Origin: Aquibium oceanicum
GTDB taxonomy: Bacteria > Pseudomonadota > Alphaproteobacteria > Rhizobiales > Rhizobiaceae
Direction of reading: 5' to 3'
DNA length: 64,000 nt
Assembly (NCBI RefSeq): GCF_001889605.1
Contig: NZ_CP018171.1
Location: 3,804,501-3,868,500 of the forward strand
Each line of letters starts with the position of its first letter. The stretch's first letter is position 1. Under the pieces are notes generated by a model, which was not told the origin of the DNA, searched no databases, and saw only the letters and a program-made list of their open reading frames with translations. The translations under genes and the position numbers were made by a program. Positions 923 through 30,321 of this stretch are shown one piece after another.

Positions 923-939
923 TGGTGCCCAGGGGCGGA
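923..939. repeat. Distal att repeat (copy of tRNA-Phe 3' end)
   Basis: TGGTGCCCAGGGGCGGA is identical to the last 17 bases of the tRNA-Phe gene at 8452-8527, in the same orientation. The sequence beyond it (TCGCAGAAACCACC) no longer forms a tRNA, so this is a duplicated 3' end and not a second tRNA. Confidence 0.82.
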
Positions 940-1354
940 TCGCAGAAACCACCTAACTCATTGACTTGATAAAGCATTCAATTGGCGCTGGAAATGCTGT
1001 TACCCTCAGAGTTACGCGCCACAAAGGCCAAACCGGTGTTTCGGCTTCTTATTCGATGCAGATCAAGGCATCTGGCTCGCCCGTTGCGACACCCGTCCAA
1101 GTAGGCAATCCCGTGCATCAGCCCCAAGGGCATAGCGTTGCCAAGACCGTTTAATCTGGTATGGAATGCAGACAATCGTTAAGATGTGAACGGTCTGGCA
1201 ATTGCCATGCTGGCATTGCGTCGCACCTCGCCGTTCGGCAAGACTATGAAAAAGTTTGTCGAGGAATCTCGCTTCGAGATGCAACCGCAACTAGACGGTC
1301 GGCGGCGTATGGAAAAGCGTCGTATGCATAGCCCTCGTCGAAGGATGCAGTCAG
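940..1354. other. Island left end, no gene recognised
   Basis: About 415 bases with lower GC than the flanking core. Frames of around 60 codons exist on both strands, but none has a convincing ribosome binding site or resembles a known protein. A CCTAACTCATTGA stretch starts 12 bases inside the att repeat (951); a related CCTAACTACTTGA lies near the other end (8392). These could be recombination arm sites or chance. Confidence 0.4.
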
Positions 1355-3100
1355 ATGCCGAGCAATCATGAGCTGATTGCCGCGATCTACGCCGCTACCC
1401 TCTCGCCCAACGATTTCGAAGCGACGTTCGACCGGCTGGACGCCCTCATCTTTCCCGATCAGGGCAGCTCCATCGCCGCAGGCGGAGAGGCGGGTGCGGT
1501 CGATAGCGTCGCGCTCGCCCATATCGACATCGCCCGCAACATCCAGAGGCGCATCGGCCAGGCGGTGACGCAGGACCAGAAGCTCGGCGCCATTGTCGAG
1601 TCAGTATCCAATCCGTCCTGCATCATGACCAGGACCGAGCAGGTCCTCGCGGCAAACCGGATGGCGGTGGCGAGGCACGGCAGAGCGCCCGCCAACCTGG
1701 ACGATCTCGTGCGCGACGAGACGACGCGCGGCCAGATCAGGAAACATTTGAATAGAAAGGATGCGATCGAACCGCTCACCCTCGCGGGCTTCATCGATGC
1801 GTCGCAGGGCGGCCCCGGCCGCATGGTGATCAGCGGCATCGACGCCAGCCTGGTCGACGGAATGCAGGAACTGTTTCTGGTCTCGGTCGTCGATTTCGGT
1901 TTCGACGACACGTCGGTGCGCCTGTTTCGCGAGGCCTATGGTCTCTCCGCAGCCGAATCGCAGGTAGCGGTGATGCTGGCCAGCGGATTGCGGCCGGCCG
2001 AGATCGCCAAGCGCCGCTCGGCCTCGATGGACACCGTCAGGACGCAGATCAAGTCGATCAAGAGCAAGACCTCGGTGCGCCACCTCCCGGAACTCGTGCG
2101 CCTGCTGTGCGGCTTCGCCGCCGGCATCCTCACCGCGGCGCCCACCGGCCGGACCACCGCGACGGTTCGGCTGGAGACCGCGCCGGTCAAGCTCCGGCGC
2201 AGGATAGTCCTGCGCGACGGAAGAAGCCTCGACTATCTCGAACAGGGCGCAGCGGACGGCACGCCTGTCATCCTCTTCCACAACGTTCCCTACGGCGTGG
2301 AACTGCCCTCGGCTGCCATCGTGCGCGCGCACCAGGAGGGGCTGCGGGTCATCGCCCCCTTCCGCCCGGGCTTCGGCCGGTCCGATCCGCTGACAGGTCT
2401 CGGGCAGGACGAACTGATCACCAGGACCGCCGAGGACCTGCGCGAACTCATGCAGCAACTTGGCCTGCGCCGCGCGACGATGGTCAGCCACTCCACCGGA
2501 GCACCCTTTGCCCTGCGCTTCGCGCGGCTCTTCCCAGAGGCGGTCTCGCAGCTTATCGGAATCTCCCGTGGTCCGATCTGGCGCGAGGAGTGGATCGGGC
2601 AAACCCCGCAGCGGCAGCGCTTCATGCTGCGGCTCTCCCGCCGTCTGCCGCAACTGGTGCCGGTCGCTGCCTGGGCAATGGTCGCCTGCATGGACAGCCG
2701 CTTCGCCAACGAATTCGTTGCCCATGCCTGCAAGGATGGCGGCGCGGATTCCAGTGCCGTACGCAACCCGGAGACGCTCGATCTCATCGCGCATGGTTGC
2801 GTCGATGCGCTTCGGCTGCACATGGACGCCCTATACCCGGAACTCCTGATTGTCCAGACCGACTTCACCGAGGAGGCCCGCGGCACGCCCCACAAGTTCC
2901 GCATCCTGCATGGAGACGAGGACAGGATCGTTCCGCTGTCGCAAAGCCTGACCTTCGCCGAGGAAGTGCCGGGCACGTCGCTCGAGATCGTGAGCGGCGC
3001 CGGACAGCTCCTGTTCTATAGCCACTGGCAGGGCGTATTGGCGGCGATCCTGGCTGACCGGATGAAGGCGACCGGCCGGCAGACCGCTGCCGCTCTCTGA
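1355..3100 (+). CDS. LuxR-type DNA-binding protein fused to an alpha/beta hydrolase fold
   Basis: A 581-residue protein with three parts. Residues 1-190 form an N-terminal sensor-like region without a clear family. Residues about 195-250 are a LuxR-type helix-turn-helix (LSAAESQVAVMLASGLRPAEIA, then TVRTQIKSI). Residues about 285-570 are an alpha/beta hydrolase. The nucleophile elbow is S-H-S380-T-G and the acid sits in HGDEDRIVP (Asp523 likely). The usual catalytic histidine after GxG is replaced by Gln551 (GAGQLL), so the hydrolase may bind a ligand instead of cleaving it. AAGGA nine bases upstream supports the ATG. It is the only regulator in the island and may control the exported proteins that follow; that is inference. 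Confidence 0.8.
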   Translation: MPSNHELIAAIYAATLSPNDFEATFDRLDALIFPDQGSSIAAGGEAGAVDSVALAHIDIARNIQRRIGQAVTQDQKLGAIVESVSNPSCIMTRTEQVLAANRMAVARHGRAPANLDDLVRDETTRGQIRKHLNRKDAIEPLTLAGFIDASQGGPGRMVISGIDASLVDGMQELFLVSVVDFGFDDTSVRLFREAYGLSAAESQVAVMLASGLRPAEIAKRRSASMDTVRTQIKSIKSKTSVRHLPELVRLLCGFAAGILTAAPTGRTTATVRLETAPVKLRRRIVLRDGRSLDYLEQGAADGTPVILFHNVPYGVELPSAAIVRAHQEGLRVIAPFRPGFGRSDPLTGLGQDELITRTAEDLRELMQQLGLRRATMVSHSTGAPFALRFARLFPEAVSQLIGISRGPIWREEWIGQTPQRQRFMLRLSRRLPQLVPVAAWAMVACMDSRFANEFVAHACKDGGADSSAVRNPETLDLIAHGCVDALRLHMDALYPELLIVQTDFTEEARGTPHKFRILHGDEDRIVPLSQSLTFAEEVPGTSLEIVSGAGQLLFYSHWQGVLAAILADRMKATGRQTAAAL

Positions 3101-3632
3101 CGCAAGAGCGCTGAGCCACGATGGCCAGGTCTTCCCGTCATTGAGAGAACGATCCGCGAGACCGTAAAAATGCGCCGCTTCACCACATGTGGGTATGCGC
3201 ATATATCCTGAAACTCTAACATCCACTTGCCACAGGAAGGGACGCTTGCGGCATGGAGGCCGCGGCTTTAGGTCTTGGGGTGAGGGATGTCTCTCGTTGT
3301 ACACGCAACCGCGCCGGCGGCCGCGGTAAGGCTGGTCGCGGGCACACGCACGCATTGTGTGTATCGATCATGGAACGCCCTTACGTCCTCGATGCCACCG
3401 CCCGGCATGCCCGAGGCGATGCCGTGAGCTGATGACCTCCCGATTTCCGGCGCCTTGCCAGCAGGCGCCGCGACTGCTCCCGCTCAGTTCGGCCAAAGTC
3501 CGCTCGGTCAAGAACACGGATGGTTGCCTCACCGGAACGGCAGCAGTCTGCGACCGGCCCGGCCGGCTCCGAAAAATCCAACGAACCAGGCCAGCGCGAA
3601 CCGCCAGCAATAACCAGTTGCGAGAAACGACC
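3101..3632. other. Intergenic region within the island
   Basis: About 530 bases between the regulator and the first exported-protein gene. A frame runs upstream of the chosen start at 3633, but its translation is Arg/Pro-rich and lacks a signal peptide, so I treat it as non-coding. A 7-bp hairpin, GGCGCCT with AGGCGCC (3449-3469), is present. No RNA gene is recognised. Confidence 0.4.
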
Positions 3633-4766
3633 ATGGACGGCGATATCCTCACCAAGAACCAATCGATCCGGACCATCGCGGGGGCTGCCGCGCTCCTCGC
3701 CTCGATCTTTGCTTTACAGCCTTCGGCACACGCGCAGACTCGGGAGTTCGGACGCGCTGGCAACTTCACGATCCTCACCGAGCCGCAGGCCCCGGGGAGC
3801 TGTCGCGCCATCATGTACGAACGGAAGCACCAGCCTACATTCGGCGAACTCTTCGCCATCGCCTATGACGGACGCAACTGGCAGATCTGGACGGACTACC
3901 GGATCTACGAGGTGCAGCCCACGCCCGTACTGGTGGACGGAAGGCCGTTCAACCTGCGGTTCGAGCAGATCGAGAATGTCGCGGTGGCTCCCGCCGGCCG
4001 CGACCTTATCGCTGCGATGGAGAGCGGCGGACACATCAATCTCAATCTCGACCCCGAGGGACCCGACTATTCCCTGCGCGGATCCGCCCGCGCCATCAAG
4101 CTGCTGGAGGCCTGCGCGGGCGGTGGCGGCAAGCCCGGCATCGCGGAGGTTCAACCCGGCCCACGGGTCGGCCCCAGGGGGAAGAACGACTATGGCGGCT
4201 ACGACGTCGCCGGCCAGCCGCAGGGCGAGTATTCCTACTCCCGAAGCCGCGGATGGCAAGTGTTCGCCGCCAGGTCGGGCTCGTCGTTCGCCAACTGCGT
4301 TGCGGAGACTCGGCGGAGCGACGGCTCGGCCATTCGCATCGGTTGGGACGGCATGCAGTGGCAACTCGCGGTACCTGTCGATTCCAGGCTGGGCTGGGAA
4401 GGCACGCTGCAGATCGACGGCGCCGGCTCCGGCCACGGCTACAGAAGCGGGGGCGACTTCATTTCCGGCATCGCGCGTGCCGGCTGGACAATCGCCTGGC
4501 TCGGGCAGGCCGAGCTCGACGGCATCCGCCGTGGCAGGGTCGCCGTTCTGGGCGTGGGCAAATTCGACTACGACTTCTCGCTGTCGGGTGCGACGGCGGC
4601 CTCACTGAAGGTGCAGGAATGCGTGGAACGATCCGGCCGCACCGCGCAAGCCCTTCCGCCGCAGCCCCGGTCTCTCGCCGACGCGGCCTTGCACTTCGGA
4701 ATGGCCAGCACGCCGACGGTCGATGATCCGAAACCGACGATCGAGATCGATCGCCACGACACCTGA
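3633..4766 (+). CDS. Exported protein with two copies of an unnamed domain
   Basis: A 377-residue protein with a Sec signal peptide ending near SAHAQ (residue 35). It contains two related segments, about 41-161 and 206-330. Each begins near an early Cys (57; 222), has a DG..WQ motif in the middle (DGRNWQIW; DGMQWQLAV) and ends in a Leu-x-x-x-Cys block (LLEAC161; LKVQEC330), suggesting one disulfide per domain. The same domain occurs in the frameshifted gene at 5539-6449, so the family has expanded locally. I do not recognise the family. The start at 3633 puts the signal peptide near the N-terminus; the Shine-Dalgarno is weak. Periplasmic or secreted location is predicted; function is unknown. 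Confidence 0.72.
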   Translation: MDGDILTKNQSIRTIAGAAALLASIFALQPSAHAQTREFGRAGNFTILTEPQAPGSCRAIMYERKHQPTFGELFAIAYDGRNWQIWTDYRIYEVQPTPVLVDGRPFNLRFEQIENVAVAPAGRDLIAAMESGGHINLNLDPEGPDYSLRGSARAIKLLEACAGGGGKPGIAEVQPGPRVGPRGKNDYGGYDVAGQPQGEYSYSRSRGWQVFAARSGSSFANCVAETRRSDGSAIRIGWDGMQWQLAVPVDSRLGWEGTLQIDGAGSGHGYRSGGDFISGIARAGWTIAWLGQAELDGIRRGRVAVLGVGKFDYDFSLSGATAASLKVQECVERSGRTAQALPPQPRSLADAALHFGMASTPTVDDPKPTIEIDRHDT

Positions 4767-4853
4767 TTTCGCAGATGGTGGCCGCCCGGGCGACGTCCGC
4801 AAACTCCGACACCAACCACACCAATCTCTCAAACCATCGAAAGGAACCCCCAA

Positions 4854-5246
4854 ATGCGTCTGCTGCTTGCATCTCTCGGCCTCCTGCTTCTCGGCGTCGG
4901 AACCTCGCACGCGGCCTCGTCGAGCTTCCAGAGGTCATGCACCGACGTCAGGATGGAGGCGACCAGCGGCGAGGTCTATCTCTTCGCCCAGTGCCGGGAC
5001 CGGCAGGGCCGCTACCACCCGGCGGAGCTGCCCCTTCTGGGCTACCAGAACGATGACGGATATCTCGTGAGGAACGGGTACGAGAACTCATCCTTCCAGC
5101 GCAGCTGCGATCAGTACTGGCTCGACGTGAACAATGCATCCGTAACGCTGAACGGCAACTGTCGGACGAGAAACGGTCAATATCGGGAATCGCGGACCGA
5201 GCTGCAGGACATTCATAACGACGATGGCAGGCTAGTAGGCAACTAA
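4854..5246 (+). CDS. Exported two-repeat cyanovirin-N homology (CVNH) lectin-like protein
   Basis: A 130-residue protein with a signal peptide (about residues 1-20). Two tandem repeats of about 50 residues follow, 23-72 and 79-128. Each starts SSFQRSC, has a second Cys exactly 18 residues later (Cys29/47 and Cys85/103), a C-R-(D/T)-R-x-G-x-Y segment and a closing N-D-D-G-x-L-V. This is the pattern of CVNH domains, where two pseudo-symmetric repeats with one disulfide each form a mannose-glycan-binding lectin. AAGGA lies eight bases before the ATG. A role in binding glycans of a host, competitor or phage is plausible but inferred; sugar specificity cannot be read from sequence. Confidence 0.82.
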   Translation: MRLLLASLGLLLLGVGTSHAASSSFQRSCTDVRMEATSGEVYLFAQCRDRQGRYHPAELPLLGYQNDDGYLVRNGYENSSFQRSCDQYWLDVNNASVTLNGNCRTRNGQYRESRTELQDIHNDDGRLVGN

Positions 5247-5538
5247 CCAGTCAGCGAAAGAAACCCCTGATCCGGACCCTGATGTTGCGACGACAATAGG
5301 GCCCTGTGCTTGACCACATTATGCGCAGCCAAAAAAGACTGGCACCTCGGCTCGACGCATCGATGCGACAGCGGGCTCCGGGCGCAATGGTCCGGATTGC
5401 CGCCAACCAGGCGAGACGACCTTCGACACCCAAGCCCGGCCACGAAGGTTGACGAACCAACGGCAAACCCGTGCCTCATCCGCGCACAGTTCTCTCGGCA
5501 TGTGACCAAATCACCCTAATCCACGAAAGGCTACTGTA

Positions 5539-6449
5539 ATGATAGCTTCCGTCCGCTGGCTCGCCGGCGCAATCGCATTGTGTCTTGCCGCCCCCGCGCT
5601 CGCCCAGGCACCGGCGATGGGCGACGACAGCTTCAACATCGTCGATGACCCCGAGGTAACCCAAGGCGACTTCTACGCCGAAGTGCGCGGCTGGAACGTC
5701 TTTTCGGGCAGCACCGACCAGGGTTTCGCCTTCTGCGCCGCCGAGATGGAACTGCCGGGCCTCACCTGGCGGTTCGGCTACGACGCGTCCCCCCATGGCA
5801 GATCGCCGTCAAGCACCGGTTCTCCGGCGAAACGCCCTACGGCACGTTCGATGTCGACGGGCACAAGTCGGGGATCAGCGGCTGGGGCAGCGGCGAATGG
5901 GTCATCCTGTGGCCCCACAAGGGCGAGTACAACGCGATCGCCAGCGGCAACCGGATGGAAATCCATCTTGGCGAGATCTGGTACGAAATGCAGCTCAAGG
6001 GAACTTCGGCGGCCCCGCTCAAAGTGCAGGAATGCGTGGCCAATCGCGGCAATCCGGAGCGCGCCATGGCATCCGCGCAGCCCCCGGCCCCGGTCAGGTC
6101 GGCCAGCGGTGCCCCGCGCATGCCGGACCCGAACCGGCGCGGCGAGGAGTTCGTCGGCAATTGCCAAACCGACTACGCGAGCTATCGCTGCATGGCGGCG
6201 ACGCTGACGCCGACAGTCGGCAACGCCAAGGCGGAGCTGATCTACGACGCGTTCGGAAGCGAGCCGAACTATATCATCCAGACCGACAAGAACGACATTT
6301 CGGAGGTCTGGGTCAGCTTCGGCAGCGATCCCTACAAATACATGGGTCGCTGGAACACCGACGGCCGCTGCCGCGGCCCGCTGCAGAATCAAGACCCGCA
6401 GGTCGTCGCCAACCTCGGCCACGACTCCTGGAAGCTCTGCGTCGAGTAG
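5539..6449 (+). pseudogene. Exported repeat-family protein gene interrupted by a frameshift in a C tract
   Basis: Codons from 5539 encode a signal peptide (MIASVRWLAGAIALCLAAPA) and the first part of the same domain as the gene at 3633. The frame is lost at a run of six C (5789-5794). Adding one C continues the protein in the frame that ends at 6449, joining ..DASPP to WQIAVKHRFSGE and restoring the family's WQ and LKVQEC motifs, for about 303 residues. The C-terminal 110 residues are Cys-containing and unlike the 3633 protein. The break may be a real null mutation, a slippage (phase-variation) site or a base-calling error; codon use stays coding on both sides, so it is recent or artefactual. 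Confidence 0.72.
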
Positions 6450-6465
6450 CCCGGGCTGGCCGGGC

Positions 6466-6491
6466 GGCGGCGGCCACCGTTGGCCGCCGCC
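6466..6491. terminator. Strong GC hairpin after the frameshifted gene
   Basis: GGCGGCGGCCA (6466-6476) and TGGCCGCCGCC (6481-6491) are perfect 11-bp arms around a CCGT loop, 16 bases past the stop codon at 6449. No T run follows, so it may be a Rho-assisted or RNA-stabilising structure. Confidence 0.55.
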
Positions 6492-6681
6492 ACGGTGTGC
6501 GGCTATCTCAATTTGCCTGGATACAACTCACCAGATTGTCCGTGATGTCCCGGTCAAGCAACAACCACCTTCTTTCGCTCCTACATATCGGAAGATCTGC
6601 AATGCCATGCAGTGCGCAAGAAATCATCTTAGACAATGCGTGACATATCCAATCTTAGGGACTTGAATGAGGAGAACAATA

Positions 6682-7164
6682 ATGCGCCTTGTTATAGTAT
6701 GCTTTACATTTTTCGGAGTGCTTATAACATCTTTGCATGCCTTCGCACAGTCTGACGACAGATTTTGCCGCAACTATGCGTCGGAAGTTTCAGGGATCGT
6801 AGAAAACGCGCTGAAAACCAACCAAGGATGCCTCGACTTCGGTCGCGGAGTCCACAACGTCTATGCTATGCATTACAGTTGGTGCCTGCAAAATTCCCGC
6901 AGCAGCGTCAACGGCGCGGAGCAAAACATCAAGCGTCTCGTGAGACAGTGCACTGGCGGGCGCGCCAGGCAGTCTGGGAACTGGATTTTCTGCGCGCGTG
7001 AGAATGAGTTCTGCGATGCCCCCCACGGCGCTACGGTGCGGTATGGAGCAAACGGAACCTTTGCCGAGCGCCGACAAGTCCGTGCCGGGGTCATGTGCGA
7101 CAACCAATCCTTTGGCGACCCGTTGTACGGCGTCGTCAAGAGCTGCTTCTACTGGTCGCGATAG
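6682..7164 (+). CDS. Exported cysteine-rich protein with a C-terminal RYGA...FGDP domain
   Basis: A 160-residue protein with a signal peptide ending near HAFAQ (residue 23). GAGGAG seven bases upstream favours the ATG at 6682 over one five codons earlier. The C-terminal 60 residues read C-A-x-E-N-x-F-C, then VRYGANG, then VMCDNQSFGDP and VVKSC. I recall this Cys-linked module from secreted and carbohydrate-active proteins, where it is attached to enzymes or lectins, but I cannot name its family. The middle part (about 24-95) is Cys-containing and unrecognised. The gene and its upstream region are noticeably more AT-rich than the core, consistent with transfer. Secretion is predicted; function unknown. 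Confidence 0.7.
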   Translation: MRLVIVCFTFFGVLITSLHAFAQSDDRFCRNYASEVSGIVENALKTNQGCLDFGRGVHNVYAMHYSWCLQNSRSSVNGAEQNIKRLVRQCTGGRARQSGNWIFCARENEFCDAPHGATVRYGANGTFAERRQVRAGVMCDNQSFGDPLYGVVKSCFYWSR

Positions 7165-7185
7165 GGGTAAGAGACCTAGCATCGG

Positions 7186-8216
7186 CCCGATACCAGAGGC
7201 TACCGCGACAGAGACTGGGAGACGTGTGCCGGCACCGTCGAATTGCGCATCCCGAAGCTGAGGAAGGGCTCCTACTTCCCAAGCTTCCTGAAGCCACGCC
7301 GCATGGCCGAGAAAGCGCTGACGGCGGCGATCCAGGAGGTCTATGTCCAGGGCATCTCTACGCGCTCGCTCGATAACCTAGTCAAGGCCATGGGTATGAG
7401 CCGCATCTTCAAGAGCCAAGTGTTGCGGCTGTGTGAGGAGATCGACGGCACTAGCCTGCCCTCGGGCTCGACCCGAGGGTGAAGGCCTTCCCCAATCGCC
7501 CCATCGAGGTCTGGCCGTATCTGTAGATCGACGCCACCTACCTCAAGGTGCGTCGCGGTGGGCGCATAATCTCGGTCGCCGTCATCATCGCCGTCGCGGT
7601 CAACACAGACGGCAGCGCGAGGTGCTGGGCATGGAGATCGCCACGTCCGAAGCCGAGCCGATCTTGACCCAGTTCCTGCGCAAGCTGACGCGCCGCGGCC
7701 TGCGCGGCGTGAAGCTCGCCGTCTCCGATGCCTATGAAGGGCCTGAAGCCGCCGCCGCCAACGTTCTCTCCGCTATCTGGCAATGCTGCCGCGTCCACTT
7801 CATGAGGAACGTGCTGGCGCATGCCGGCAAGAGCGGCCGGCGCGTCGTCTCCGCCTTCATCGCGACCTGCCCTCGCTCAGGAGACGCCCGAGGCCGCCAC
7901 CACCCAGTGGCGCTCCGTCGCCGACCAGATCCGGCCCAAGGTGCCCAAGCTCGCTTCCATCCTCGACGACGCCGAGCCCGAAGTTCTCGTCTACATGACC
8001 TTCCCCAAGGAGCACCCGGCCAAACTCCACAGCACCAATCCGATCGAGCGGCTCAACGGCGAGATCAAGCGGCGCACCGACGTGGTCGGCATCTTCCCCT
8101 ACGACGAAGCCATCATCCGCCTTATCGGTGCACTCCTGCTGGAGCAGAATGACGAATGGGCTGTCCAGCGCGCCCGCTAGATGACGCTGGAAAGCGTCAG
8201 CCAATTAAGGCGATGA
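7186..8216 (+). pseudogene. Decayed IS256-family (mutator-type) transposase
   Basis: Joined across frames, the translation matches the C-terminal three quarters of IS256-family transposases: [102 protein letters not shown] and LLLEQNDEWAVQRAR. The N-terminal part is missing. There are in-frame stops at 7524-7526 (YLW to YL-stop) and 8178-8180, and frameshifts near 7450, 7610 and 7870. No terminal inverted repeats could be identified. The relic lies beside the att end of the island, where insertions often accumulate. It cannot make active transposase. Confidence 0.88.
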
Positions 8217-8290
8217 TCCTCTCATCAGCCTGCCAGCAGTGGCACGCTGATCAGCCCGGCAATGTTGAGCGAGAAATCCGACAGGGTCAT

Positions 8291-8338
8291 TGGGTAACGC
8301 TCCGCAGGCGTGTGGGTAACGCCCAAACCGTTACCCAC
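8291..8338. repeat. Three TGGGTAACG copies, two as a perfect inverted repeat
   Basis: TGGGTAACG occurs at 8291-8299 and within 8312-8321. The latter forms a perfect 10-bp inverted repeat with 8329-8338: GTGGGTAACG, spacer CCCAAAC, CGTTACCCAC. The cluster lies about 115 bases inside the right att repeat. It could bind an integrase, an excisionase or a regulator; none is present nearby. Confidence 0.6.
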
Positions 8339-8451
8339 AAATCGATGCGTTGCAAGGTTCGGCGGTGAGCGGCAATGAGCAGCTCGACCCGCCTAACTAC
8401 TTGAAAATGAACAATGCAGGAGATGCTATGTTCAGAGCGGAGAAGGGTGGG

Positions 8452-8468
8452 TGGTGCCCAGGGGCGGA
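8452..8468. repeat. Proximal att repeat inside tRNA-Phe
   Basis: The 17 bases TGGTGCCCAGGGGCGGA form the tRNA-Phe 3' end and match 923-939 exactly. Integration at this point lets the tRNA keep its function. Confidence 0.8.
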
Positions 8469-8527
8469 ATCGAACCACCGACACTGCGATTTTCAGTCGC
8501 ATGCTCTACCAACTGAGCTACCTGGGC
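8452..8527 (-). tRNA. tRNA-Phe (GAA)
   Basis: The minus strand folds as a 76-base tRNA: acceptor GCCCAGG with CCTGGGC, D arm GCTC..GAGC, anticodon loop CTGAAAA giving GAA, T arm GGTGG-TTCGATT-CCGCC, and an encoded CCA end. Its last 17 bases are the right att repeat of the island, and island integration has left the gene intact. Confidence 0.97.
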
Positions 8528-27487: not shown

Positions 27488-30321
27488 GCCTGCTTTCCTT
27501 CGGCCAGCCGCTGGTTCTCCTCGGGCTCTTCGCGCTTCCCGTCATCTGGTGGCTACTGCGCCTTACGCCGCCGAAGCCGCAGACGGAGGTCTTTCCGCCC
27601 CTGCGCATCCTGCTGCGCGTCATGCGCAAGGAGGAGACGCCGCATCAGAGCCCGTGGTGGCTCACGCTGCTGAGGCTGCTCATGGCGGCGCTGGTCATCT
27701 TCGCGCTCGCCGACCCGATCTTCAATCCGCGCGAACGGCTGGAGACCGGAGGCGAGGCGGTGGCACTCGTCGTCGACAATGGCTGGGCTTCGTCCTCCGA
27801 CTGGGATCTGCGCGTCGCGACCGCCGAGCGGCTGATCACCGATGCGGCCGATGCGGGCGCGCCGGTCATCCTCGCCTTTACCGCGGACAAGCCGAACGTC
27901 GAGATCGGCCCCTTCGACGCCGAACAGGCGCGTGACCGCCTGAGGGCCGCCTCGCCGCACCCGGTGCCTGTCGACCGCGCAGGCGTCTATGGCCGCGTGG
28001 CAGGCATGCTGGAGACAGTTTCCGGTGCGACTGTCGCCGTCCTCTCCGACGGGCTTGCCACGCCCGGCGACGAGGCGGCATTTTCGGCCCTGCTCGGCGA
28101 GAATGCCGGCAGCCTGGTGTGGATCGAACCAGACCAGCTTCGCATGGCCGGACTGACGGGCGTGGACAACCAGCCCGATTTCTTCGAGGTGACCGCTATC
28201 AGGCCATTCGGGGATCCGACGCCGCGGCAGGTCACCGCCGGCGCGTTCGACGACCGCGGCAGGCGCATCGCCGATACCTCGTTTTCCTTCGGTCCGGCCG
28301 AGACGTCGGCCACCGCGGAAATCCGTGTTCCCTTCGAACTACGAAACGATTTCGCCTCGATCCGGATCGACGGGGAGAACCAGGCCGCTGCCGTTCGCGT
28401 GCTGGACGAGAGTTCCAAGCGCCGGCGCGTCGGGTTGATTTCGCAGTCCGAGGCCGACCAGGCGCAGCCGCTGCTTTCGCCGCTCTACTACATTCGCCGC
28501 GCGCTCCAGCCCTTCGCCGATCTCGTCGAGCCGGAGACCTCGGACCTCGCCGAGGCCATACCCGCCATCCTCGAGCAGAAGCCGGCGATGATCGTCATGG
28601 CCGACGTCGGCACGCTGCCGGATACGGCGCGGGAAGAACTGATCGAATGGCTGAACGAGGGCGGCACCCTCGTTCGTTTTGCCGGGTCGCGGCTGGCGGC
28701 TGCCGAGAACGACGAAGAACTGCTGCCAGTGCGCCTGAGGCTCGGCGAACGGTCGCTGGGCGGTTCGCTTTCCTGGACGGAGCCACAGCCGGTCGCCGAA
28801 TTCCCGCCCAGCGGACCCTTTTCCGATCTTTCCCCGCCGCGCGAGGTCTCGGTGATGCGCCAGGTCCTCGCCGAGCCGACCGTCGACCTCTTCGAGCATA
28901 CTTGGGCGAGCCTTGCCGACGGCACGCCGCTGGTCACGGGCGCCCAGCGCGGCGAAGGCATGCTGGTCCTGTTCCATGTGACGCCGGAGGCGACGTGGTC
29001 GACGCTGCCGATCTCGGGCAGCTTCGTCGAGATGCTGCGCCGCGTCGTGCAGCTTTCGCGTAACCAGGGGACGATCGAAGGCAGCGACCGGGCGGGCGGG
29101 CAGACGCTTCCGCCCTACCGCATGATCGCCGCCGACGGATCGCTGGTTCCGCCGGGTCCGGACGCAAAGCCGCTGGTGATCGGCGGTGGCGAGCGGCCGG
29201 TCACGATCGAGAATCCACCGGGCCTCTACGGCACGGAGGAAGGCGTGATCGCGCGCAACCTTCTCGCAGCCGACGCCGTCTTCACGCCCATCGTACGCCC
29301 AGATACCAACCTTCCGGTCACCGAGGCCGCCTACGCCGCCGACAGATCCCGCGACCTCAAGGGCATACTCGTGGCATTGGCCCTGCTCCTGATGGCACTC
29401 GACACGCTGGCGGTCTTCTGGATGGGCGGGCTGTTCTCGCGCGGTCGTCGCTCCTCGGGACGTGCCGCGGGCCCGGCGACCGCAGGTCTCCTCGCCTTCG
29501 CGGCCCTCGGCCTCGTGCTGTCGTCTCCGGGCCAGGGCTACGCGCAGGAAGCCGACGACACCCAGGTCAGCGAAGCCGAAGCCGTCGACGCGATCTCCAC
29601 GACGCGGATCGCCTACGTACTGACCGGAGATTCTTCCACGGACGCGATCAGCCGCGCGGGGCTGACGGGACTGACACGCTTCCTGATCGAGAAGACGGCG
29701 CTGGAACCGGGAGAGCCGGCCGGCATCGACATCGCCAGCGACGAACTCTCCTTCTATCCGCTCATCTACTGGCCGATCGACCCTGACGCGGCCATGCCGT
29801 CGGAAGCCTCGATCGCACGTCTCGACGCCTACATGAAGCAGGGTGGGTCTGTCCTGTTCGATACGCGCGACCAGTTCTCGACTGGCCTCGGCGTTTCGGG
29901 CGCCAGCGCTTCGACGCAGCGCCTGCGTGACATCCTGTCGAGCCTCAACGTGCCGCCGCTGGAGCCCGTCCCGGAGGACCACGTGCTGACGAAGTCCTTC
30001 TTCATTCTCCAGAACTTTCCCGGCCGCTACAATGGCAGCCCGCTCTGGGTGGAGGCGTCCGTGGGTGCCAGCAATCTGGAGGAACGGCCGGTGCGAACCG
30101 GTGACGGCGTCAGCCCGATCATGATCACCGCGAACGATTTCGCAGGGGCCTGGGCGATCGACGCCAATGGCGATCCGCTGCTGCCGACGGTTCCCGCCGA
30201 TCCGATGCAGCGAACCTATGCCTATCGGGCGGGCGTCAACATCATGATGTACATGCTGACGGGTAACTACAAATCCGATCAGGTCCACGTGCCGGTCCTT
30301 CTCGAGCGGTTGGGGCAGTAA
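27484..30321 (+). CDS. BatA-like/DUF4159 membrane protein
   Basis: A 945-residue protein. Residues 1-80 form a BatA-type N-terminal region with two membrane helices around a short loop, followed by a large vWA-like and beta-rich part. Further helices occur at about 620-645 and 660-680. The last 240 residues form a DUF4159 domain (..ELSFYPLIYWPIDPDAAMPSEASIARLDAYMKQGGSVLFDTRDQF..). It belongs with MoxR and DUF58 in a membrane complex whose task in alphaproteobacteria is poorly defined; envelope integrity or stress tolerance is the usual suggestion. It overlaps the DUF58 gene by four bases. Confidence 0.88.
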   Translation: MSLLSFGQPLVLLGLFALPVIWWLLRLTPPKPQTEVFPPLRILLRVMRKEETPHQSPWWLTLLRLLMAALVIFALADPIFNPRERLETGGEAVALVVDNGWASSSDWDLRVATAERLITDAADAGAPVILAFTADKPNVEIGPFDAEQARDRLRAASPHPVPVDRAGVYGRVAGMLETVSGATVAVLSDGLATPGDEAAFSALLGENAGSLVWIEPDQLRMAGLTGVDNQPDFFEVTAIRPFGDPTPRQVTAGAFDDRGRRIADTSFSFGPAETSATAEIRVPFELRNDFASIRIDGENQAAAVRVLDESSKRRRVGLISQSEADQAQPLLSPLYYIRRALQPFADLVEPETSDLAEAIPAILEQKPAMIVMADVGTLPDTAREELIEWLNEGGTLVRFAGSRLAAAENDEELLPVRLRLGERSLGGSLSWTEPQPVAEFPPSGPFSDLSPPREVSVMRQVLAEPTVDLFEHTWASLADGTPLVTGAQRGEGMLVLFHVTPEATWSTLPISGSFVEMLRRVVQLSRNQGTIEGSDRAGGQTLPPYRMIAADGSLVPPGPDAKPLVIGGGERPVTIENPPGLYGTEEGVIARNLLAADAVFTPIVRPDTNLPVTEAAYAADRSRDLKGILVALALLLMALDTLAVFWMGGLFSRGRRSSGRAAGPATAGLLAFAALGLVLSSPGQGYAQEADDTQVSEAEAVDAISTTRIAYVLTGDSSTDAISRAGLTGLTRFLIEKTALEPGEPAGIDIASDELSFYPLIYWPIDPDAAMPSEASIARLDAYMKQGGSVLFDTRDQFSTGLGVSGASASTQRLRDILSSLNVPPLEPVPEDHVLTKSFFILQNFPGRYNGSPLWVEASVGASNLEERPVRTGDGVSPIMITANDFAGAWAIDANGDPLLPTVPADPMQRTYAYRAGVNIMMYMLTGNYKSDQVHVPVLLERLGQ

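Follow-up and report, generated by a model that had tools for sequence, protein, structure and literature searches.

The closest described counterparts of the locus analysed here are the cis-mobilizable elements (CIMEs), as defined in the excerpted text of PMC5704250, and the integrative elements of Mesorhizobium. In excerpts from a survey of 41 Mesorhizobium genomes (PMC8627217), tRNA-Phe is among the 16 integration sites of 79 integrative and conjugative elements (ICEs) and integrative and mobilizable elements (IMEs), and the smallest IME is 5.8 kb. Here we examine positions 923-8468 of a 64,000-nucleotide stretch of the Aquibium oceanicum genome (contig NZ_CP018171.1, positions 3,804,501 to 3,868,500; the whole stretch is hereafter the window), an interval that lies between two exact copies of the 3′ end of tRNA-Phe. 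We put at roughly four in five the chance that an integrative element inserted itself by site-specific recombination at the 3′ end of tRNA-Phe and that this interval is its remnant, now decayed to a CIME-like state. A first-pass annotation of the window had already proposed a site-specific element that is no longer autonomous, and the two cores and the integrase stub described below support that proposal.

Judged by its sequence, the interval is a CIME in anatomy under the definition of PMC5704250. Like a CIME it keeps attL and attR, recognised here from sequence only as two exact cores. It has lost its integrase, with 15 matches to the PF00589 integrase domain in the genome, none of them in the interval, where a stub of eight codons remains; and no transfer or symbiosis gene is found among the Pfam and NCBIfam matches of its scanned open reading frames (ORFs). 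It differs in that some of its cargo has kin elsewhere in its own genome. With the M. loti symbiosis island ICEMlSym-R7A and the Mesorhizobium IMEs, by the descriptions in the excerpted papers, it shares the tRNA-Phe target, the 17-bp core length, the P4-type integrase class and an integrase start near the tRNA end, and the class given to IntS in the excerpted text of PMC4334631 agrees with the P4-type stub. Unlike ICEMlSym-R7A, the interval measures only 7.5 kb, its integrase is reduced to a stub, and no symbiosis, conjugation or transfer gene was matched in the ORFs scanned. The parallel with the M. loti island drawn in the first-pass annotation fits as a likeness of position, length and class, from which descent does not follow; the letters of the 17-mer had no match in the literature searched.

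The two cores form an exact 17-bp repeat in direct orientation, the distal copy at 923-939 and the proximal copy at 8452-8468 on the plus strand. Because ARAGORN places an intact tRNA-Phe (GAA) at 8452-8527 on the minus strand, the proximal core is the 3′ end of the target gene itself. None of 100 shuffles of the window gave a match to the repeat, and the 16-mer GGTGCCCAGGGGCGGA, with up to one mismatch allowed, occurs only at these two sites in the genome (5,324,561 bases in two contigs), where the reversed 16-mer used as a control has no match. The same whole-genome search found no internal core copy between the two. A query of the tRNA with its flank found no second tRNA-Phe in the genome, the other two matches being partial at 76-77% identity. 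The direct copy 7.5 kb from the tRNA, as first annotated, was thus borne out.

The remains of an integrase lie between the proximal core and a fragment of an insertion sequence (IS). Two genomes of other genera, G008 and G011, have P4-type integrases beside tRNA-Phe that are open throughout, and the 187 bp next to the tRNA of the window (8265-8451) can be aligned with the start of these genes and with their attachment arm. The alignment scores 154 with G008 and 170 with G011, against a maximum of 106 for each in 1000 block shuffles, and the G008 score also exceeds the maximum of 94 reached by 1000 random window stretches. Among eight control stretches downstream of tRNA-Phe, seven score 76-91 and that of G002 scores 138. 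The distance from start codon to tRNA end is 162 bp in the window, 164 bp in G008 and 165 bp in G011. What is left of the gene, on the minus strand at 8265-8290, is a start codon followed by seven codons (MTLSDFSL, codons 8290 to 8267) and then by the IS fragment; five of the eight residues are common to G008 and to G011. This stub was found through DNA alignment of the arm, and the earlier statement that no integrase is left holds for the domain matches but overlooks this trace and the arm repeats upstream of it. The G008 and G011 enzymes are 72.6% identical to each other, with three integrase domains each, and their loci share with ours a homologous arm, repeats, integrase start and spacing; they differ in their open integrase and in having no second exact core in either genome.

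Both arms of the interval carry repeats. The proximal arm (8291-8339) holds three copies of TGGGTAACG, two direct and one inverted; all three window copies fall in 8291-8337, where 0.14 would be expected. Directly inside the distal core, the arm at 940-1005 contains CCTAACTCATTGA at 952-964 and one GTTACCC at 999-1005, motifs picked after inspection, and it presumably binds integrase. Of the five GGGTAAC copies in the window, four fall in the two arms (999, 8292, 8314, 8330) and one at 30261; a total of five was reached in two of 100 shuffles. On the minus strand at 8427-8435 lies CTGAACATA, which is common to G002, G008 and G011 at the equivalent place. Of 27 distinct tRNA-Phe 3′-end stretches, only four, those of this genome (G000), G002, G008 and G011, combine CTGAACATA with the repeats. 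The arrangement is the same in G008, where the tRNA-Phe is accompanied by CTGAACATAGC and a GGGTAAC/GTTACCC pair, and the open P4-type integrase follows directly.

The flank of G002 was first taken as native chromosome, but its score in the 187-bp alignment points to the element instead. Besides the equivalent arm it has, at the equivalent place, a stub of its own, which reads ALSEFSVRNAKPRE in one frame and, across 33 residues, matches the G011 enzyme at 51.5% identity (E 7.6e-6). This stub is broken but longer than that of the window, with other genes beyond it; searched with the G008 enzyme at 1e-6, the G002 locus L038 yielded nothing more. As CTGAACATA, the repeats and a stub are common to G000 and G002, an element with such an integrase may have been present at tRNA-Phe in their ancestor, or may have entered twice, with the integrase decaying in both.

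Other searches for integrase relics and for the arms returned little. No credible relic emerged from the interval in tblastn searches that used the G008 and G011 enzymes together with six tRNA-Phe integrases representing three types. An ORF of genome G108 that reads through the tRNA-Phe gene matched the window tRNA (7e-7) and, in the searched piece, 3531-3737 (0.001) and 4971-5150 (0.018), matches that we set aside because the ORF extends past the integrase domain into non-integrase sequence. A DUF6538-type integrase had first been considered from the 17-bp core and was overridden by the arm homology. The pattern of core, up to 28 bases and CTAACTNATTGA had no match in the contig collection, from which our own genome is possibly excluded; the distal arm (940-1360) matched only its own place and two short stretches among 394 genomes, with no plasmid match, and 8261-8451 likewise had no plasmid match. 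The G008 integrase found four loci in viral contigs and none at 60% identity or more on plasmids.

We suggest that a P4-type tyrosine integrase of the G008/G011 kind would have recombined the core of the element with the last 17 bases of tRNA-Phe, so that one end received a restored tRNA and the other the 17-bp copy. The integrase gene would later have been lost save for its first eight codons, which an IS256-family fragment now abuts. That fragment occupies 7198-8264 on the plus strand (right edge 8260 or 8264, depending on the comparator), with a broken frame and IS256/Mutator transposase pieces recognised by Pfam and NCBIfam at 7243-8180; a Chelativorans plasmid carries an IS256-family copy with which 7198-8260 shares 85.2% identity. 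The agreement among three plasmid copies extends 239-274 bp further left and 55-60 bp further right, so both ends are missing here and the fragment is a deletion product and not a clean insertion. We infer that arrival of the IS broke the integrase gene. The island, having no integrase, is expected to be immobile. Its two attachment sites are still present, so that the arrival of another element with the same integrase could lead to insertion next to the island or to its being carried along.

The 17-mer is present in 75 of 394 family genomes and occurs twice in 11, five of which have both copies on one contig and strand. Both copies were inspected in all 11; in G035 and G222 they are tRNA ends at contig edges, which leaves nine genomes, including this one, with a partial second copy. 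Among the eight others an integrase adjoins the tRNA in six, a pattern that demonstrates use of the site: a DUF6538-type integrase in G415 and G116 (the Phage_integrase match of G116 being below cut-off), a P4-type integrase with an arm-binding domain in G320 and G063, and a third type in G150 and G108. None was seen beside the tRNA in G306 and G061, where one and three ORFs, respectively, were scanned by Pfam. In this family tRNA-Phe is thus a point of entry exploited by integrases that are unrelated to one another. The islands of G415, G306, G061 and G150 resemble ours in having a tRNA-end repeat of at least 17 bp on one contig, and those of G415 and G150 differ in carrying integrases of other types. 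In G061 the tRNA-Phe end is present in two 19-bp copies, and the 1.9 kb that they enclose (L079:4689-6639) holds HTH_37 and Gp49 (DUF891) genes side by side, a toxin-antitoxin-like pair, with no integrase among the three ORFs scanned. The A. oceanicum genome itself has, outside the window, tyrosine integrases near tRNA-Ala (GGC), tRNA-Gly (CCC), tRNA-Ala (CGC) and tRNA-Met (L120, L137, L140 and L141), so several tRNA islands are seemingly present; those at the two tRNA-Ala genes and tRNA-Met are related to the DUF6538 type.

The flanks also speak for an inserted element. In the two closest species both flanks are common (92.9% identity on the left, 87.2% on the right) and the genes adjoining tRNA-Phe differ. 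The HAD-family protein of the left flank, used as a query, found two loci, in Tabrizicola soli and on a contig of the G002 metagenome-assembled genome (MAG; uncultured Mesorhizobium sp.), neither usable as an empty site. G002 shares both flanks with other genes between them, on broken contigs, and its contig with the HAD start enters, near base 340, what we take to be Illumina adapter, so that this junction was left unused. Beside the tRNA-Phe of G002, in place of the window cargo, are genes that by eye encode a TRAP transporter, an acyl-CoA dehydrogenase, a MaoC-like protein and an AMP-ligase-like protein (L038:9974-16367 and L072).

Several observations weigh against a decayed P4-type element. 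No empty site was found in five genomes of the genus, in 61 relatives on the tRNA side or with the HAD protein in the contig collection, and the MAG of the closest relative, G002, is 69% complete and split into 610 contigs. The stub is only eight codons long and went undetected by tblastn, and the arm motifs were picked after inspection. The tRNA-Phe of G052 is accompanied by a single repeat and an integrase that is broken, and the G052 arm scores 114 against a null of 108, which is marginal; that of G046 scores 90 against 100, no signal. The core is 17 bp here as in the DUF6538-type islands of G415 and G116, whereas the P4-type G320 and G063 share 22 and 23 bp. G008 and G011 have a single exact core each, and G008 shows no second at three mismatches within 116 kb. 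Finally, the outer flank of the left core is slightly like the right flank (equalled by 26 of 5000 random stretches) and the G002 flank (2 of 5000), a likeness that, for G002, we can explain only by attB and attP being alike beyond the core, as in the G306 and G063 islands. Weighing these points slightly lowered our odds for the decayed element.

The cargo begins with a 581-residue protein in which a LuxR-type helix-turn-helix (HTH) domain is fused to an alpha/beta hydrolase (1355-3100, plus strand, as are the cargo genes below; PF00196, PF00561). Its best relatives elsewhere, 54% identical in G112 and 52% in G001, are not beside tRNA-Phe, and defence models gave only two marginal matches, both to its HTH region. 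Downstream lies an exported-type protein of 377 residues (3633-4766) with no Pfam match above cut-off and relatives in 11 of 151 genomes including our own; its predicted model (mean pLDDT 68.4, pTM 0.45) suggests an IalB-like fold through a weak match to Bartonella IalB (3dtd; best E 4.6e-4, TM-score 0.26 by query and 0.58 by target). A 130-residue exported-type lectin of the CVNH mannose-binding type follows (4854-5246; PF08881 8.7e-14, NF052356 above cut-off), which matches the solved mannan-binding lectin 2y1s (E 1.3e-5). Sequence comparison shows 5470-6547 to be 97.8% identical to a place at 1.11 Mb of the same genome; within it, an exported gene (5539-6449) has an interrupted reading frame in the window and is intact in the 1.11 Mb copy (L115). 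A small exported-type protein (6679-7164) has a related gene in L115 (74.5% nucleotide identity over 416). Signal peptides were judged by eye. The fused regulator, lectin, exported-type proteins and IS pieces listed in the first-pass annotation are all present, and the cargo likely serves as a regulated group of envelope proteins that are secreted and contact sugars.

The products of 3633-4766 and 5539-6449 have a common domain. A secreted-type family with one common beta-rich domain (L109, L110, L112-L116, L108 and L111) has several copies in this genome; most members are without a Pfam family, and the domain is mixed with other modules, Ricin_B_lectin in L112 and a VHL beta domain in L108. 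The exported gene at 1.11 Mb is neighboured by a PAS-LuxR regulator (L115:8906-9709), just as the window copy is by the LuxR-hydrolase. In G081 (L108:6840-11334) an exported-domain gene is found no more than 5 kb from a relative of the LuxR-hydrolase (39%), and regulator and secreted protein may therefore travel together.

The first-pass annotation had described the interval as unlike the flanking core. In composition it is, which also favours the element: 940-8451 is further from the 84-kb mean in tetranucleotide distance than each of 153 sliding windows, the top windows overlap the interval, and G+C is 62.7% against 64.9%. In kinship it is not plainly foreign, two cargo blocks having their nearest kin in the genus or in the genome itself, and these secreted-protein genes may have arrived by relocation or gene conversion. 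A CVNH match occurs in six of 394 family genomes including our own, at 78% in G004 and 39% in the next, and in one plasmid record at 31%. G004 carries exported-protein genes and CVNH between the rpsA-cmk region, recognised by eye, and tRNA-Ala; G001 has an exported gene at the rpsA-cmk place and no CVNH match; and the 377-residue protein has no match in G002, which is only 69% complete, or in G003. In our genome the flanks of the rpsA-cmk place lie at 1,136,918-1,139,925 and 1,141,242-1,141,936; the 1.3 kb that separates them contains another gene and no such cluster, and rearrangement has placed the tRNA-Ala side 25 kb away in reverse orientation.

These mixed affinities leave room for a history in which an old element left its cores and stub and was mostly deleted, the present genes coming later by unrelated events, so that 923-8468 never travelled as one unit with this content. 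This account, which is compatible with entry by site-specific recombination followed by decay, has appreciable weight although we lean against it. It would explain the kin of two cargo blocks elsewhere in the genus or genome, the IS fragment without either end, and the different ages of neighbours at 97.8% and 74.5% identity; against it stand the odd composition across the whole interval and the absence of an internal core copy.

A more specific proposal, which we regard as doubtful, is that the emptied element turned into a parking place where secreted-protein genes resident in the genome came to lie. The exported-protein/CVNH block would have moved there from its position at rpsA-cmk in congeners, gene conversion would keep a neighbouring gene similar to its paralogue at 1.11 Mb, and usable attachment sites would still frame the whole. 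The contrast between 97.8% identity at 5470-6547 and 74.5% in the next gene suggests that the former was recently copied or gene-converted from the 1.11 Mb place. Identity of the exported-protein/CVNH block to G004 is 77.1-78.7%, and four G004 flanking segments give 76.6, 79.0, 84.3 and 85.0%; the block has therefore diverged like the faster resident genes. Its divergence falls within the spread of its neighbours rather than matching their level, which slightly lowers the odds of the parking-place proposal, and import of the block from an unsampled congener is possible. If the parking place is real, the next element to enter tRNA-Phe could carry off native chromosomal genes.

It is improbable that the interval is a non-autonomous element still moved by the integrase of another, in the manner of the integrase-free alpha regions of tripartite ICEs described in the excerpted text of PMC8627217: both cores and arm repeats on both sides are kept, but none of the integrase loci compared in our genome is close to the G008 type (best 36% over part), and the cargo looks decayed, with its IS fragment and broken frame. 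Very unlikely indeed is a 17-bp copy that arose with no integrase, by chance or through mere duplication of the tRNA end, since the slight likeness of the left outer flank to the right and G002 flanks, which duplication would give, is set against the lack of shuffle matches and of other genomic copies, the stub and arm repeats at the expected place, and an integrase stub common to G002.

Decay of an integrative element at tRNA-Phe thus remains our preferred reading. The island is of an ordinary type, and its history is unusually readable: it offers a case of island fixation in which two sister species have stubs of one integrase at one tRNA, with different genes beside them, and other genera keep the enzyme open. 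The class of integrase to supply in an excision assay can now be named. The interval also shows that a location between tRNA attachment sites does not by itself make cargo foreign, a point that bears on methods classing all such intervals as horizontally acquired.

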